Source: Verrucomicrobiales bacterium (GTDB lineage: Bacteria; Verrucomicrobiota; Verrucomicrobiia; Verrucomicrobiales; DEV007). From it: a stretch of DNA of 53,943 nucleotides. Each line of letters opens with the position of its first letter. The first letter of the stretch is position 1. The stretch covers positions 1-53,943 of the forward strand of contig JAGPCC010000004.1 of the NCBI GenBank assembly GCA_018058245.1, given 5' to 3'. This document shows, piece after piece, positions 42,234 through 49,458 of the stretch. A model generated the notes under the pieces. The model was not told the DNA's origin. It saw only the letters and a list, made by a program, of their open reading frames with translations, and did not search any database. A program made the position numbers and the translations under genes.

Positions 42234-43076
42234 TCAAAGTGGCTGACCTGTTCCAGGTGCGGCGTCTCCCGGAGCTAGCTCTGGAGCGGACTTTTGTTTC
42301 AGGAGCTTCTTTGGCTCACTTTTTGCGTTCGGGCTTGGGAACGGTTTAGTAAAGGAATCGACGATCGTTGCCTTGAGCGTTTCCCAGCGGGGAGTGACTT
42401 TCTGCCAGAGGCCGAATTCACCCGCTAGCCAGATCGCAGCGATCAGAAGAGCAAGTTTCCAAAAGTCCGAACGCCATTTACCGCGTTGTCTTTTCAACTC
42501 CTGTTCCAGGGAAGTGATGCGAAGGGACTGCTCCTCAAGCGTGTCCCGTAGTGGGTTCGGTTCGAGCGCTCCCGGCGCAAGCGGCATCTCAATCAAATTG
42601 TGTTTTGTCGCCAACTCCGCCTTCACCCGAAGAACCTCCTCCTGCGCATCAAGGATGATGTGTTCCAGCTTTTCAAAATGCACTGGTTTGGAGAGAAAAT
42701 GGGTTGTCAGGACGGTGTCGTTCCCTTGCTCACGAAACTCGAGTTCCAGTTCTTCGGATGGATACCCGGTGATCATGATGATCGAGAGCGGGCGTTCCTG
42801 CGACTCGCATAGCGATTTGACGACTTCAATGCCGGACATGCCAGGCATCCTATAGTCCAGGGTAACGACTTCAATGGACGTTTCTGAATGGATGAAATCC
42901 AGCGCCTCCCGACCGTTTCTTGCGATAAAGACCTTTTCAAAACCAACATATTCCCGGAGAAACGTCTTCAGTCCCAGTTGAAAGGCAGGATCTTCGTCCA
43001 CGATGAGAATACCAGAGGGAATCATCAAGGGAGGGGCGTCGAGGGGATTATCTTCCTGAGAGAGGGGAGAGCTCAT
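42234..43076 (-). CDS. Receiver-domain protein with coiled coil and C-terminal membrane helix
   Basis: This 280-residue protein begins with a receiver domain (about residues 20-145) that keeps all key residues: the acidic pocket in LIVDEDP, the phospho-aspartate in VTLDYRMPG, a Thr in MITGYP and a Lys in LSKPV. A predicted helical, coiled-coil-like region follows (LRDTLEEQSLRITSLEQELKRQ), then one membrane helix (FWKLALLIAAIWLAGEFGLW) and a basic, Pro/Lys/Ala-rich tail. There is no DNA-binding domain or enzyme output. I know no family with this exact order; it could tether a phospho-switch at the membrane. It is divergent from eboE, 71 bases apart. Confidence 0.8.
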   Translation of the reverse strand: MSSPLSQEDNPLDAPPLMIPSGILIVDEDPAFQLGLKTFLREYVGFEKVFIARNGREALDFIHSETSIEVVTLDYRMPGMSGIEVVKSLCESQERPLSIIMITGYPSEELELEFREQGNDTVLTTHFLSKPVHFEKLEHIILDAQEEVLRVKAELATKHNLIEMPLAPGALEPNPLRDTLEEQSLRITSLEQELKRQRGKWRSDFWKLALLIAAIWLAGEFGLWQKVTPRWETLKATIVDSFTKPFPSPNAKSEPKKLLKQKSAPELAPGDAAPGTGQPL

Positions 43077-43147
43077 AGGTAAAAAGGGAGGGCTTTCTTA
43101 TTGTTGCTGCTTCAGAAGTTCATTGTCGAGACTTATTAAGGAAATTT

Positions 43148-44383
43148 ATGCGGTCCTTGTCTTGCGCCCCGCGCCCAAGTGCGTTTCTTTCTGCGATGCG
43201 ACTACAACACGGAATCAATCTCGCCTATTGCACGAACATCCATCGTGGTGAGACCTGGGACCAGACTTTTGCAGGACTCCGCGATTACACCGACGCCGTT
43301 CGACTCCGGGTTGCCCCAGGGGATGCCTACGGCATCGGTTTACGGCTCAGTGCTGTCGCCGCAGAAGAGTTGACTGCCGATTCCGGTCGTCTCGATTCTT
43401 TTCGCCGTTGGATGGAGGAACGGAATTCGTATATCTTCACGATCAATGGATTCCCTTACGGCACCTTTCATGGAAGCCGCGTGAAGGAGCAAGTCTACGC
43501 GCCGGACTGGACGGATCCGGTGCGCCTTTCCTATACAACCGGGCTCTTTGACATCGTCTCTGCCCTCGCGCCTGCGGGAGAATCAGTGAGTGTGAGCACT
43601 CTGCCGGGGTCGTTTAAAGAATTCATTTTTCCGCAGACGGAAGCGGTGCAAGTGCAAGCCATCTATCGACACCTCCGGCAGTGCAGTGATCACATTGAAA
43701 GGCTGCGGGACCGCACCGGTCGGGATATCCACCTCGGGTTGGAGCCGGAGCCGCTCGGTCTCTTCGAAACGAGCGGGGAAACGGTCCGCTTTTTTGAAGG
43801 ACTCCTGCAAGATTGCAGTTCGGGCGAGCGTGAGCGGATCCTGCGCAATATCGGAGTGAACTATGACACCTGCCACCTCGCGGTCGAATTTGAAGAACCG
43901 GAGGATGCGATCAGCCGTCTCCGGGATTCCGGCATTCGGATCAGCAAAGTGCATCTCAGTTCAGCCCTGCGCCTTCGACCGACGAAAGAGGCGATCGAGC
44001 GTCTCTGTGCTTTTCAGGACGATGTCTACCTCCACCAAGTCGTAGTATCCGATGGGAGGGAAGTCGTGCATCGCTTTCGTGACCTGCCGAATGCCATCGA
44101 TTGGTCCCAGACGGCGAATGGCGATGTCGGCGCCGAATGGCGTGTGCATTTTCATGTCCCCATTCACGCTCAACCGGAAGCACTCTTTTCGGATACTCGG
44201 GACCATATTACCGGACTCCTCACGCTATTGGCGAAAGATCCACGATGGTGCAGCCACTTTGAGATGGAGACCTACACTTGGGAAGTCCTCCCCGAGGCAA
44301 TGAGGAGTGGAGATGTCGTCGATCAACTCGTGGCAGAGTACGATTGGTGTCTCAACCAGTTCCGCAATCAGGGGCTTGCCTGA
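43148..44383 (+). CDS. eboE: Metabolite traffic protein EboE (TIM-barrel, xylose isomerase-like)
   Basis: EboE is a sugar-isomerase-like TIM-barrel protein of the ebo clusters, linked to moving secondary metabolites out of the cytoplasm in cyanobacteria and others. The match is the opening LQHGINLAYCTNIHRGETWDQT, then FPYGTFHGSRVKEQVYAPDW, and VNYDTCHLAVEFE later on. I start at 43148 because AAGGAA precedes it; the ATG at 43196 (MRLQHG) would fit the family's usual start but has no Shine-Dalgarno sequence. No other ebo gene is visible, so here it is an orphan between two receiver genes. The role in this organism is unknown. Confidence 0.85.
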   Translation: MRSLSCAPRPSAFLSAMRLQHGINLAYCTNIHRGETWDQTFAGLRDYTDAVRLRVAPGDAYGIGLRLSAVAAEELTADSGRLDSFRRWMEERNSYIFTINGFPYGTFHGSRVKEQVYAPDWTDPVRLSYTTGLFDIVSALAPAGESVSVSTLPGSFKEFIFPQTEAVQVQAIYRHLRQCSDHIERLRDRTGRDIHLGLEPEPLGLFETSGETVRFFEGLLQDCSSGERERILRNIGVNYDTCHLAVEFEEPEDAISRLRDSGIRISKVHLSSALRLRPTKEAIERLCAFQDDVYLHQVVVSDGREVVHRFRDLPNAIDWSQTANGDVGAEWRVHFHVPIHAQPEALFSDTRDHITGLLTLLAKDPRWCSHFEMETYTWEVLPEAMRSGDVVDQLVAEYDWCLNQFRNQGLA

Positions 44384-44395
44384 TGGGCATCCACC

Positions 44396-45052
44396 CTACC
44401 AGACCGACTTGGCAGGCCTCTTTTCCTCGTCCCTACCGGGAAATGCGAACCCGAAACTCTGAGCTGGTTCCGCTTGCGGGAAGGAGGATTCCCTCGCTGG
44501 GAACTGTTCACTGAAAGCGCTGGAAGGAAGGCCTCTCCCCTCGTTGTTCCCGAGCGAGAGCAGGCGCATACTCGCTTCCGCTGGTCTCAGGTCATCGTCA
44601 AAGTCCGGCAGCTCCATGATGGGTTCGTTACACGGAGTTGGTGCAGTGGACGATCCATTGTCCTTGAGCTGATTGTAGGTCAGATTTGCATTTAAGTGCG
44701 ATTCGATGATCGAAACTAAGTCCCGCAACTGCACTGGTTTTGCGACGACGGTGCTGCGTATTCCGCACATCAGAGCGAGGGCTTGCGCTTCCCTCGCAAT
44801 GGCGGTGAGCAGGATGACTGGGATATAACGAAGAGAAAGATCGTTCCGGAGATCCGCAAGGACACGACCTCCGTCTTTTTCCGGCATCATCACATCGAGC
44901 AGAATGAGGTCGGGCATGTAGTGTCTGACCGTATTGACTGCCAAGAGAGGATTGTTCTCCACAACAGGATCATATCCGAACTTCGCGAGTGCTTTCGCAA
45001 GAAGCGTTGTAAGGGCGACATTGTCGTCGATGATTTGGATTCGCGATTTCAT
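44396..45052 (-). CDS. Single-domain response regulator with disordered tail
   Basis: This 218-residue protein has an intact receiver domain (residues about 3-120): IIDDN, the phospho-aspartate in LLDVMMPEKDG, LLTA and AKPV with the switch lysine. The last 90 residues are low in structure (Pro, Ser, Glu and Gly-rich) with no DNA-binding or enzymatic domain. It could act by protein interaction or as a phosphate sink. The frame is open 14 residues upstream from a TTG; the ATG at 45052 gives the normal receiver start. It is convergent with eboE and its 5' side faces the cupredoxin terminator. Confidence 0.85.
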   Translation of the reverse strand: MKSRIQIIDDNVALTTLLAKALAKFGYDPVVENNPLLAVNTVRHYMPDLILLDVMMPEKDGGRVLADLRNDLSLRYIPVILLTAIAREAQALALMCGIRSTVVAKPVQLRDLVSIIESHLNANLTYNQLKDNGSSTAPTPCNEPIMELPDFDDDLRPAEASMRLLSLGNNEGRGLPSSAFSEQFPARESSFPQAEPAQSFGFAFPGRDEEKRPAKSVW

Positions 45053-45159
45053 TGCAGTGAACATCAATATATATGGAGAATATGAAAAATACAAAACATT
45101 ATTTGATAATTTCTATCATCGAAATCATTTGCCCTAGGGAAGGAATCGTCTGCAAACGC

Positions 45160-45198
45160 AAAAAACCGGCCGACCGCAAAGCAGCCCGACCGGTTTTT
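45160..45198. terminator. Terminator after the cupredoxin gene
   Basis: The arms aaaaaccgg and ccggttttt pair over nine bases around a long internal region, with further pairing inside. On the minus strand it lies about 30 bases past the cupredoxin stop and ends in a T-run. Confidence 0.75.
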
Positions 45199-45226
45199 CC
45201 AAAGAGTTGGGAAATCGAGATACGAC

Positions 45227-45691
45227 TTATTCAGCCACTTTCATGACACCGTTCATGATTGCCCAGTGACCAGGGTAGGTGCAGATGTAGGGGTAGTCAC
45301 CTGCCTCAGCGGGTGCGGTGAATTCGATTGTTTCGGACTGACCAGGTTGGACCAACTTTGAGTGGTGGAGAATATCGTCTGATTTCGGAATTGCATTGCC
45401 CGTGGTGAGGAAGTTGGGGTCTGACATTCCGGCATTCGCAGCCATGCCGACGATGTCCTTTTTCCCGGGTTTAACGATGAGGACGTTGTGTGGCTGGCGC
45501 GTGATACTGTCGGCTGGATTCACGAGCGTCAATTTCACGGTCTGGCCAGGCTTGACCGTGAATTCTTTGATGTCGTAGATAAATTGGATCTTGTCTGCAG
45601 TGAGAGTGACTTCGACTGCGTCTTGGGCGTGCGAGGAGAATGTTCCGGCGAGGACTGCAGTAAGACAGAGGGTGCTAATGAGCTTCTTCAT
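45227..45691 (-). CDS. Exported azurin/plastocyanin-like cupredoxin
   Basis: This 154-residue protein has a Sec signal peptide (LISTLCLTAVLAGTFSSHA) and a type 1 copper-binding fold. The ligands are a His in RQPHNVL, then a Cys, His and Met in YICTYPGHWAIMNGVM; this CxxxxHxxxxM spacing is usual in the family. It would carry electrons in the periplasm. Some related proteins are auracyanin-like. A Fur-type palindrome lies 80-102 bases before the start, which suggests metal-linked control. It has its own terminator, so it is a single-gene unit. Confidence 0.9.
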   Translation of the reverse strand: MKKLISTLCLTAVLAGTFSSHAQDAVEVTLTADKIQFIYDIKEFTVKPGQTVKLTLVNPADSITRQPHNVLIVKPGKKDIVGMAANAGMSDPNFLTTGNAIPKSDDILHHSKLVQPGQSETIEFTAPAEAGDYPYICTYPGHWAIMNGVMKVAE

Positions 45692-45770
45692 TTCGTTCGA
45701 ATAGGAGTTTGGTGTTTGCGTTTGGAAACGCGCGACATCTTAATTTACGCTACAGAGTCTGCAATGGATG

Positions 45771-45793
45771 TTTATGAGAATGATTCTCATAAA
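45771..45793. promoter_or_regulatory. Fur-box-like palindrome
   Basis: The 23-base inverted repeat tttatgagaa-tga-ttctcataaa is perfect apart from its centre and matches the Fur/ferric uptake regulator type (GAGAATGATTCTC core). It lies between the divergent cupredoxin (start 45691) and pseudo-receiver (start 45886) genes, so it could regulate either. No fur gene is in the window. Confidence 0.7.
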
Positions 45794-45885
45794 TTTTTAA
45801 AAACCAGTTGGAGTAATCTTAAAAAGCGGTATATTTATGGAAATTTGATTATATGCCGTTAATTCGGTTCTTATCCAACACCCGC

Positions 45886-46650
45886 ATGAATAGAGTTTTG
45901 ATTGTCGCAGGCGAACGCCAAACCGGGGAACGTTATCAGCAAGCGCTAGGCCAAGAAGGCTTTCAGACCGCAGTTGTGTGGAATCCGATCCAGATGGTCG
46001 AGTTTTGTCGACAACACACTCCTGATTATATGGTTGTGGATCTCGATCTTGCTGAATTGGGCCTCTGGAGCTCTTTGCAGGCGGTTCGAGGCATCGACAC
46101 CTTGGCAAATGTCCCGATCTTGGGACTGGCTTCGGCAGCGAACCAGCAGCTGTTTGAAAAGGCGAAAGCAGCCGGGTTTCTGGCCGTCTTTCCGACGCAT
46201 GACAGCAGTCGGGCGATCATCGAGTCGATTAAGCGTGAGATTCAGAAGAACCAAGAACCCGAAGAACTTTCAGATGAAGCGCCTTTCAGCCAAGATCCCT
46301 CGCTGAATCGTCTTCGCGAGGTTGCTCTCGATATCGTGCAGGTCTCCGCTTCGCTGAAGGCCCGGATCGGCGAATATGGGGATGACGGTCCAGAATTGTT
46401 CTCCTATATCGTGAATTCCGGTCATGAGATACGGAAAAAACTGAATGGAATTTCTGATTTTTCTCTCCATGACAAAGAACTTCGGCACGACTTTCGGAAC
46501 ATGATCGGATCTGTGACCGGATTCTCCGAGTTGATCTTAATGGAAGGGGGCCTTTCTCCCGAGTCCACGGCGGGACTTACTCGCCTGCGAGAAAATTCCT
46601 CTGAGTTCGTCCATATTTTGGATCAACAAAGAGCTGGAGCGACGGTCTGA
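45886..46650 (+). CDS. Pseudo-receiver fused to a histidine-kinase-type dimerisation helix
   Basis: This 254-residue protein has a receiver-like N-terminal domain (residues 1-115) in which the acidic pocket is replaced (LIVAGERQ), an aspartate remains (VVDLDLAELG), and the switch lysine is lost (VFPTHDSS). The C-terminal part contains LRHDFRNMIGSVTGFSELI, which resembles the H-box of HisKA domains (compare HELRTPL), but there is no ATPase domain. It could be a phosphotransfer or scaffolding protein that accepts phosphate on that histidine. I chose the ATG at 45886 (MNRVLIV); an ATG at 45853 would add 11 residues. No known family combines the two parts as far as I know. Confidence 0.7.
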   Translation: MNRVLIVAGERQTGERYQQALGQEGFQTAVVWNPIQMVEFCRQHTPDYMVVDLDLAELGLWSSLQAVRGIDTLANVPILGLASAANQQLFEKAKAAGFLAVFPTHDSSRAIIESIKREIQKNQEPEELSDEAPFSQDPSLNRLREVALDIVQVSASLKARIGEYGDDGPELFSYIVNSGHEIRKKLNGISDFSLHDKELRHDFRNMIGSVTGFSELILMEGGLSPESTAGLTRLRENSSEFVHILDQQRAGATV

Positions 46651-46743: not shown

Positions 46744-47640
46744 ATGAAAGTGGGGATCACCGGCGCGAGCGGAAGTATCGGCTCAGCGCTCATCGCAGAA
46801 GGGCTGCAACGAGGCTGGTCTATCGTCGCGTACTCTCGGGATTCGACGCAGACGATTCGCGGAGCCGACGAGATCCGTTCCGTCGCCGATTTGGACTCGA
46901 TCGATTTGAGTGGCCTGGATGCTCTGATCCACCTCGCGGGGGAGTCCATCGTCGGTTTCTGGACGCAGGAAAAAAAGCGGAGAATTCGGGCGAGCCGCAT
47001 CGACCTCACTGCGAGTCTAGCCCGGACCATCGAGGCACTCCCTCGAGGGCAGCGTCCCAGGGTGTTTTTGTCTGCATCTGCGATTGGTTACTACGGCGAT
47101 CGAGGCGGGGAGTGGCTCGATGAGGAGAGCGATGTGGGGTTCGGATTTCTTGCGTCGGTTTGCCGCGATTGGGAGTCTGCCTCGGCAAAGGCGGAGGAAC
47201 TGGGTGTGAGGATCGTGAATCCGAGAATCGGAATTGTCCTGGGACGGGAAGGTTTTTTGAAACCGATTCGCCGTGTCTTCCGGCTCGGGCTGGGCGGACG
47301 TCTCGGGAAGGGGAACCAGTGGATGTCCTGGATCCATCTTCAGGATCTCGTTCGCATCCTTGCGGAGTGTGTCGAAAATGACAGTATCCATGGTCGGGTA
47401 AACTGTGTGGCCCCGAGCCCAGTGACGAATCGGGAATTCACCCGCTGTTATGCAAGGATTCTTGGACGGAAGGCGCTCCTGCCCGTGCCAAATTTCCTGC
47501 TGAAGCGACTTCCGGGAGGAATTGGTTCTCTCTTTCTCCATAGCCAACGCGTCGAACCGGTCATGATGAAGGCTTTCGGCTTCGAATGGGAGTTTTCTGA
47601 TTTGGCTTCGGCTCTCACGAACGTGGAAACCGGGCTTTGA
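46744..47640 (+). CDS. TIGR01777 family NAD(P)-binding epimerase
   Basis: This 298-residue protein of the extended SDR (YfcH) type opens with KVGITGASGSIGSALIAEGL, the GxxGxxG nucleotide-binding motif. It includes LIHLAGESI, SASAIGYYGDRGGEWLDEES with the active-site Tyr, and WMSWIHLQDLV. The family has a sugar-epimerase fold; the substrate is unknown. The C-terminus has the usual DUF1731 stretch (PVPNFLLKRLPGG). It is followed by a HAD phosphatase 31 bases on. Confidence 0.9.
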   Translation: MKVGITGASGSIGSALIAEGLQRGWSIVAYSRDSTQTIRGADEIRSVADLDSIDLSGLDALIHLAGESIVGFWTQEKKRRIRASRIDLTASLARTIEALPRGQRPRVFLSASAIGYYGDRGGEWLDEESDVGFGFLASVCRDWESASAKAEELGVRIVNPRIGIVLGREGFLKPIRRVFRLGLGGRLGKGNQWMSWIHLQDLVRILAECVENDSIHGRVNCVAPSPVTNREFTRCYARILGRKALLPVPNFLLKRLPGGIGSLFLHSQRVEPVMMKAFGFEWEFSDLASALTNVETGL

Positions 47641-47671
47641 GTTTTTCTCGGCTCGACACTATCCTTCCCGC

Positions 47672-48550
47672 ATGGCAGCACCGCAGAACATTATCGGAAT
47701 CGTTTACGATTACGACCAGACTCTCAGTCCCACGTATATGCAGGACGAAGTGCTCTTTCCCGAGTTTGGGATCAACCCCACTGAGTTTTGGAAGCAGTGC
47801 AAGTTGCTCGTCGAAGACCACGGCTACGAAAATGAACTCGCCTACCTCAAGGCAATGCTCGACTATTTGGAAATGGATGGCCCCAGTAACGCGGATCTGG
47901 AAAACCTCGGAAAAGGTCTCCAGTTCTTCCCGGGTCTGCCGGAGATGTTCGGGGAGTTGAACGTGCTCCTGAGTGATGAGCATCGGGCCATGGGTGTGAA
48001 AATCGAGCACTATATCGTCTCAAGTGGGCTCAAAGCGCTCATCGACGGGAGTCGTCTCCGGCCTTTTATTAAAGAGATCTTCGGCTGCGAATTTGCGGAG
48101 AACAGCGCCGGCCGAATTTCCTTTCCCCGTCGCGTCATTTCCCACACCGCAAAGACCCAGTACCTATTCCGGATCAACAAAGGGATGCTCGATCCATCGG
48201 ACGATGTGAATGACCACATGGCCGATCATCTGCGACCGATCCCGTTTCCGAATATGATCTATCTCGGTGATGGTCCTACGGATGTTCCTTGTTTCACTGT
48301 GATGAAACGTTTCGGCGGCCACAGCATAGCGGTTTACAATCCCGGAGACAAAACGAGAACCAGCTTTCGCAAAGCGTATCAACTCGCGGGGGTTGCTGGC
48401 CGGATCAAACACATCGCCCCGGCTGACTATCGGGCGGGGAGCCATCTGCGTCTCCTCCTCGAAGAAACGATCCTCGATATCGCGTCAAATATCGTCGAAG
48501 TACGACGCCGTGAGTTCATCGACGGCACGATCGCCGCGCCGACTCATTGA
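47672..48550 (+). CDS. HAD family hydrolase, phosphoserine-phosphatase-like
   Basis: This 292-residue protein has the HAD nucleophile motif in YDYDQTLSP, a Ser/Gly motif in [13 protein letters not shown], and the acidic motif [11 protein letters not shown] cap domain lies between the first two. The reaction is likely phosphate removal from a small molecule; I cannot name it. The stop overlaps the convergent aroD gene by 7 bases. Confidence 0.8.
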
Positions 48551-49236
48551 TGGCGGATTTCGTGGATAAGATGCCGGAGTTCTGCCGCAGACCACTGGCC
48601 GGGTGCGTTGGGCGTCTGAAGATATCCGTAATTCAGGCACGAACCCGACTGGGCGAGTGCGAGTCGTGACAGTTTCCCCAGCGTTCCCATGCCCATGGCC
48701 GAGACAAATCTTCCTCGGCTGCGGTGATATTCGACGAGTTCCGAAAGGGCAAAAAGATCGCTCATGGTTTCGATGACGACCGCAATTTTTGCGATATCCG
48801 CCTTCAGCGAAAACGCTTCGATCAATTTTTCCGCGAGGAAATCCTTTCCAGGGAAGGAGTAGAAGTCATGAAACGATCCGATGAGGCGAGATCCTGAGGC
48901 GTGAACTTCCTCGGGGAACTCGGCAAAGTCTCTTTCCGCGAGGGACGCTACTTCCACATCGACCAGGGTCGCTACGGCGAGGTGTTTGCGGTAGATCTCA
49001 AGGCGGGATTCCGCAGAAAGTCCCCCGGCACCTCCCTCCTTGGGATGCCTTACGGTGAGCAGGGCAGGGAGGGGATGTGCCTCCATCACTTCCCCAGCTT
49101 CCTTTTCTACCGAGAGAAGATTGTCGAATCGGTATTCCAATAGATCGCACTCTGGAGCCGCCCCTGAGCGGAGGTGTTCGAGATCTTCCGGTCGGGTGAC
49201 CGTGGCGACAATGAGGGGTTCAGAAAGCGGGTCCAT
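48544..49236 (-). CDS. aroD: Type I 3-dehydroquinate dehydratase
   Basis: AroD makes 3-dehydroshikimate in the shikimate pathway through a Schiff base. The 230 residues include [11 protein letters not shown], the catalytic His in IGSFHDFYS, the Schiff-base Lys in ADIAKIAVV and the conserved [14 protein letters not shown]. Length matches the type I class. I start at the ATG at 49236; a GTG six codons earlier is also possible, and neither has a clear Shine-Dalgarno sequence. The gene is divergent from the glycosyltransferase gene, with about 220 bases between them. Confidence 0.9.
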
Positions 49237-49458
49237 CGATGGGGAATCTTTCACGAAAATCGGAAAACGGCGACTTTATTCCGTTTGTCGAGCTCCGATC
49301 GATCCCGACGATGGAAGGGGAGAATCTGACCAGCGATGCCAAGAAAAGGAAATTTCGACAGGATCGCCGTAAGTTCACGTCGTATCATAGGACGGTGGAA
49401 AGAGTCCGACAGGCTGTTAGGAAGCGATGACGTATCTAGTTCTACCTTTAAATGGAGC

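Follow-up and report, generated by a model that had tools for sequence, protein, structure and literature searches.

A conserved gene block in Verrucomicrobiales encodes P0005, a candidate phosphotransfer or phosphatase protein of kinase origin that combines an invariant H-box with a degenerate receiver

The protein P0005 is most likely a kinase-derived phosphotransfer or phosphatase protein comparable to Spo0B, ChpT and PhyT, and the genes for EboE and for a cupredoxin are conserved neighbours of its own. We read it as a kinase-derived phosphotransferase because its ATPase domain has been lost and its receiver is dead while its H-box is unchanged; its phosphotransfer or phosphatase activity, its partners and its output are what we infer from this composition. 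The neighbourhood itself is real and conserved, and contains one unusual protein family, restricted to a single bacterial family in the genomes sampled. The window analysed, a stretch of 53,943 nucleotides, is contig C412 of a 5.04-Mb genome in 427 contigs, and the features discussed are collected in Table 1.

Table 1. Features of the P0005 neighbourhood, in window coordinates.
Feature	Coordinates	Strand	Basis or remark
P0001: receiver, coiled segment, one C-terminal transmembrane helix, Pro/Ala-rich tail	42234..43076	-	HMM and alignment
P0002: EboE, xylose-isomerase-like TIM barrel of ebo clusters	43148..44383	+	NF035939
P0003: stand-alone intact receiver with disordered tail	44396..45052 (or -45094)	-	HMM, alignment
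P0004: secreted azurin-like cupredoxin	45227..45691	-	signal peptide; HMM
Perfect 7-1-7 Fur-type palindrome TGAGAATGATTCTCA	45775..45789		between cupredoxin and P0005
AT-rich promoter-like element TTGGA..TTAAAAA..TATATTTATGGAAATTTGATTAT	45809..45854	+	conserved upstream of P0005
P0005, N-terminal degenerate receiver	45886..46251	+	alignment of homologues
P0005, C-terminal four-helix bundle with invariant H-box RHDFRN, no ATPase domain	46297..46641	+	predicted; alignment
SDR (TIGR01777, +), HAD (+) and AroD-type 3-dehydroquinate dehydratase (-, assigned from sequence)	46744..49254	+, +, -	right part of the genus-conserved block

The first-pass annotation had grouped five genes, P0001 to P0005, into a signalling island, and translation together with HMM scans of all five recovered each with the domain content described there. 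Synteny was assessed by comparing each protein with 115 relatives, Verrucomicrobiales genomes that were nearly all metagenome-assembled, and with 20-kb regions from the genus. The order and orientation of the five genes recurred in many genus members (e.g. positions 18693-23023 of contig C46 in genome G008), and the conserved block ran from 42.2 to 49.25 kb, comprising eight genes: P0001 to P0005 plus those for the SDR, HAD and AroD proteins. Among informative genomes, adjacency was kept between P0001 and EboE in 14 of 19, EboE and P0003 in 16 of 24, P0003 and the cupredoxin in 17 of 26, the cupredoxin and P0005 in 24 of 28, P0005 and SDR in 26 of 30, SDR and HAD in all 26, and HAD and AroD in 23 of 25. 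The left neighbour, PopT, adjoined P0001 in none of 13 informative genomes and the right neighbour, a glycosyltransferase, adjoined AroD in none of 22, so that the eight-gene block is sharply bounded and order in the flanks is otherwise unretained. Because gene order is conserved and the edges are sharp, the grouping is real and not one of random neighbours; loss of synteny among relatives, which had been named as evidence against it, was looked for, and the order was found conserved across the genus. The block also holds AroD, SDR and HAD, which are probably unrelated in function to the rest, and therefore co-location and conservation alone define no single pathway. The HAD-family protein (47672-48550), which scored under every family cut-off in the HMM scans, showed 78-90% identity across the genus vs mostly 45-78% for its neighbours.

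Outside the genus, P0005 and the cupredoxin still lay divergently side by side in g10, g12 and g16, bringing to four the genera with this configuration, and in g10 (genome G042) P0003 also lay beside the pair. The cupredoxin was missing from the genus members G016, G024 and G030, where P0003 stood directly opposite P0005; this divergent adjacency without a cupredoxin is documented by loci L113-L115. In genus g6 (G052, G059) P0005 was immediately upstream of EboE and co-directional with it, and two contigs of a further g6 genome, G038, appear to adjoin at this gene, as judged from overlapping sequence. We consider it unlikely that the block is simply a stretch of ancient gene order that one genus has retained, with the five genes sharing no function. 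Such an explanation would accommodate the presence of AroD, HAD and SDR, the loss of P0003 or P0001 in several species and the situation in g12, whose receivers, EboE and P0005-cupredoxin pair lie on separate contigs, but it sits poorly with edges as sharp as 0/13 and 0/22 amid unretained flanking order, with a P0005-cupredoxin adjacency present in four genera, and with the recurrence of P0005 beside EboE in g6 in another arrangement.

Relatives place the start of P0005 at ATG 45886, the best start, and the gene ends at 46650 on the plus strand, with the codon for His212 at 46486-46488. The hexapeptide RHDFRN was identical in 40 of 40 full-length homologues, and RHDxRN was invariant in a 25-sequence set that included receiver-less versions, so that the positions needed for HisKA chemistry (His, an acidic residue at +1, Arg at +3 and Asn at +4, Asn216) are kept and are the most strictly conserved positions of the protein. 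Helices 3-4 formed the most conserved region, with a mean pairwise identity in the family of 65% vs 45% for the receiver. P0005 itself matched HisKA at 16 bits, below the cut-off, and several homologues gave HisKA or SPOB_a matches on the H-box hairpin (best 2e-6). The HMM scan detected no HATPase domain in P0005 or in six homologues, and P0005 ends after helix 4; nor was there a match to Pfam Hpt at E<=1 in these seven proteins. AlphaFold2 modelled the C-terminal 125 residues as a compact single-chain four-helix bundle (pLDDT 93, pTM 0.86). An isolated H-box helix had been proposed for this protein: the H-box is indeed present, but it is not isolated, being the third helix of the predicted bundle. 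In a Foldseek search of the helical domain against the PDB, the 50 matches listed were generic bundles (best E 0.038) and included none from HPt, Spo0B or DHp structures, and a sequence search of the PDB found no meaningful relatives. Internal duplication of the two hairpins was considered as well and is unsupported (hhalign probability 1.6%).

The full helical domain was confined to this family in a search of 338 genomes across the phylum. Matches outside the family, where inspected and readable, were ordinary kinases with an ATPase domain; the remainder matched the H-box in part, for the most part within long open frames. Stand-alone helical domains without a receiver, 120-176 aa long, occurred at loci L079, L080, L082, L083 and L084, and in other genera some of these domains are additional paralogues. 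The P0005 homologue of genus g3 stands divergently beside a 4-mercaptohistidine N1-methyltransferase-like (OvoA C-terminal) gene, at L123 7065-7823 (family name scanned), L126 7058-7843 and L127 7050-7808 (clustered with L123 by BLAST).

The N-terminal part of P0005 matched Response_reg at 26 bits, below the cut-off. In its sequence, the acid pair is replaced by Ala-Gly, the Thr position by Ala and the Lys position by Thr, Asp63 being kept; most genus members likewise have Ala-Gly at the acid pair, Ala or Ser at the Thr position and Thr at the Lys position. The receiver catalytic set (acid pair, phospho-Asp, Thr/Ser, Lys) was incomplete in 40 of 40 full-length homologues, which bears out the earlier description of this domain as a pseudo-receiver, and the phospho-Asp was kept in 35 of the 40 and replaced by Gly or Asn in 5. 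In two of the three g6 genomes, which are drafts, the receiver part was broken and the helical part intact. The model of the full-length protein had a pLDDT of 92 and a pTM of 0.54, and given the latter value the relative orientation of the two domains is not established.

Proteins that have lost kinase activity and act as kinase-derived phosphotransferases are represented by PhyT, ChpT and Spo0B (PMC5898713, PMC3433190). PhyT/PhyP of Sphingomonas melonis, a degenerate HWE/HisKA_2-type phosphotransferase, resembles P0005 as proposed here in being kinase-derived, with a conserved phospho-His in a DHp domain and a non-functional catalytic part, and in working with a stand-alone receiver (PMC5898713). 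PhyT differs in being membrane-bound and in having a degenerate ATPase domain and an HRxxN motif, whereas P0005 is soluble by sequence, without an ATPase domain and with a degenerate receiver. ChpT of Caulobacter and Spo0B of Bacillus share with P0005 a HisKA/SPOB_a-type H-box, in a hairpin by which they carry out phosphotransfer without autokinase activity (PMC3433190), and the HisKA-type H-box hairpin with its phospho-His position was found in P0005. In those two proteins, however, the bundle is a dimer of hairpins, while in P0005 one chain, instead of two subunits, is predicted to supply all four helices (pTM 0.86). The ATPase-like C-terminal domain (a vestigial Bergerat fold) that is kept in ChpT has no counterpart in P0005, which gave no HATPase match and so also lacks the domain by which a histidine kinase autophosphorylates. 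The P0005 domain, as predicted, may resemble HPt proteins in forming a monomeric four-helix bundle with one candidate phospho-accepting His, but its H-box is of the HisKA type, it has no Pfam Hpt match and no HPt was among the Foldseek matches listed. Since these defining features of the Spo0B/ChpT and HPt groups were not found, we do not claim membership of P0005 in either.

Two stand-alone receivers are encoded in the block. P0001 matched Response_reg at 68 bits and continues after the receiver with a coiled segment and a single hydrophobic helix, FWKLALLIAAIWLAGEFGLW, in agreement with its annotation as a membrane-anchored receiver; on inspection of the sequence its catalytic set (acid pair, phospho-Asp, Thr/Ser, Lys) was complete. 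In the alignment, most P0001 orthologues end (42234-42500) in a GxPL-type tetrapeptide, past the membrane helix and the Pro/Ala-rich tail. P0003, for which relatives favour a start at ATG 45052 over TTG 45094, also has a complete catalytic set, and its receiver match of 56 bits and low-complexity tail fit the receiver with a disordered tail that had been described. This tail (44396-44640) keeps the motifs ELPDFD and FxFPxR across the genus, and FxFP-like text persists even in the P0003 pseudogene of G014. As had been noted at first pass, no DNA-binding or enzymatic output domain was detected by HMM in P0001, P0003 or P0005. The scans gave no ATPase domain in these three either, and no kinase lies within the eight-gene block. 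A hybrid kinase at 29.9-34.2 kb had been suggested to feed the receivers; we rejected it as a partner, as it lies outside the conserved block and its sensor had no significant match in 85 related loci.

A relay shared by the three receiver proteins had also been put forward. The conserved gene order shows that the genes are not random neighbours, but a closed three-receiver relay is unsupported because the P0005 receiver is degenerate in every homologue, and P0001, P0003 or both are disrupted or absent in some members. P0001 is a pseudogene in G011 (L062 11958-13400), where P0003 is gone, P0003 is a pseudogene in G014 (L063 7340-7885), both of them 3.5-Mb genomes, and G020, G021 and G031 have no P0003 at the block locus; P0005 is intact in all five and therefore P0001 and P0003 cannot be its only partners. 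Mutual information between P0005 helix 3 and P0003 or P0001 was limited to about 25 pairs, too few for this purpose.

The mechanism that we favour, at a probability of about one half, is that P0005 is a phospho-His protein that accepts a phosphoryl group from a receiver and passes it to, or removes it from, stand-alone receivers. It would derive from the H-box hairpin of a HisKA kinase whose ATPase domain was lost, a single chain forming the kind of four-helix bundle that in kinases arises by dimerization. His212 would accept the phosphoryl group from a receiver, for example that of a hybrid kinase encoded elsewhere, and would transfer it to, or take it from, intact stand-alone receivers, for which the neighbouring P0003 and P0001 would be the natural candidates in most species. 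The receiver of P0005, probably too degenerate for normal phosphorylation, would act in docking or regulation, and output would occur by protein contact, as DNA-binding and enzymatic domains are absent from all members.

Phosphatase and phosphotransfer activities are inseparable by sequence in P0005, and the invariant H-box could also be explained by dephosphorylation or by a purely structural function. At +4, HisKA DHp domains have phosphatase residues, and P0005 keeps this position as the invariant Asn216. A less probable but credible alternative is that P0005 is a receiver aspartyl-phosphatase or a titrating adaptor, whose bundle docks phosphorylated P0003, phosphorylated P0001 or other receivers, and whose H-box Asn at +4 speeds their dephosphorylation or which sequesters them. 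No phosphate source is encoded nearby and a degenerate receiver suits a docking role, both in line with this proposal, although the strict conservation of His212 points rather to a phospho-carrier. The history of PhyP is a further caution, since its initial assignment was as a phosphatase and it later proved to be a phosphotransferase (PMC5898713). We regard as improbable a third possibility, a pseudo-signalling scaffold in which receiver and H-box both stay unphosphorylated and the protein acts by binding alone: judged by sequence, all homologues have a dead receiver, and there is no ATPase domain, but the strictest conservation falls on the chemical residues of the H-box, which would not be expected of a purely structural helix.

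Conversion of kinases into phosphotransferases by loss of ATPase function is known from few cases (Spo0B, ChpT and PhyT). If the phospho-His reading of P0005 is correct, its invariant H-box, dead receiver and predicted single-chain bundle would add a route of different structure to these few, in an order of bacteria that has been little studied, and orphan receivers, for which partners are usually lacking, would gain concrete ones that can be tested.

The neighbour P0002 scored 429 bits against NF035939, above the curated NCBIfam cut-off of 250, which makes it a member of EboE, a protein present in 99 of the 115 relatives. In Nostoc, published work connects the ebo cluster with exporting the precursor of a metabolite into the periplasm (PMC6282210). 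Whereas relatives from other genera keep the EboE and EboC-like UbiA genes of the EboA-F cluster, EboE elsewhere in the family being usually followed by the UbiA protein (and G047 having the run TatD-like, EboE, UbiA, DHQS-like), EboE in the window's genome does not cluster with other ebo genes and sits among signalling genes. Its EboC-like (C184), EboD-like (C208) and TatD-like (C260) genes are all on contigs other than that of EboE, so that the label of orphan EboE was correct as to location. None of the EboC-like matches reached the curated cut-off, and the TatD-like match (44%) may be an ordinary TatD. A wider proposal, which we hold to be doubtful, is that P0005 represents a new class of single-chain phosphotransfer proteins, in which a HisKA H-box that escaped from a kinase, an extra hairpin that completes a monomeric bundle and a dead receiver used for input or docking would link a periplasmic cupredoxin and a metabolite function of the ebo type to stand-alone receivers, one of which is anchored in the membrane.

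The cupredoxin P0004 matched the plastocyanin/azurin family at 49 bits and carries the motif Cys-x4-His-x3-Met in CTYPGHWAIM. It had been described as Fur-linked. The perfect palindrome exists in the window, but it was absent from the same intergenic region in roughly 34 relatives examined, and Fur regulation of the cupredoxin/P0005 pair was rejected for this reason; its presence in this genome only is possibly a recent species-level regulatory gain. The AT-rich element upstream of P0005 showed strong conservation across the genus, which extended partly outside it. In a profile search, the window site scored E = 1e-9, being itself part of the profile, and the next match in the genome 0.018; the best further match lay before a PAS-receiver gene. 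Since the further profile matches were weak and before unrelated genes, a dedicated regulon was rejected and the element was treated as a conserved promoter. An exact search with the 12-mer TTTATGGAAATT gave 7 sites in the genome vs 0 for the reversed control, among them one upstream of a hybrid kinase (C92) and one next to a PAS-receiver gene (C137).
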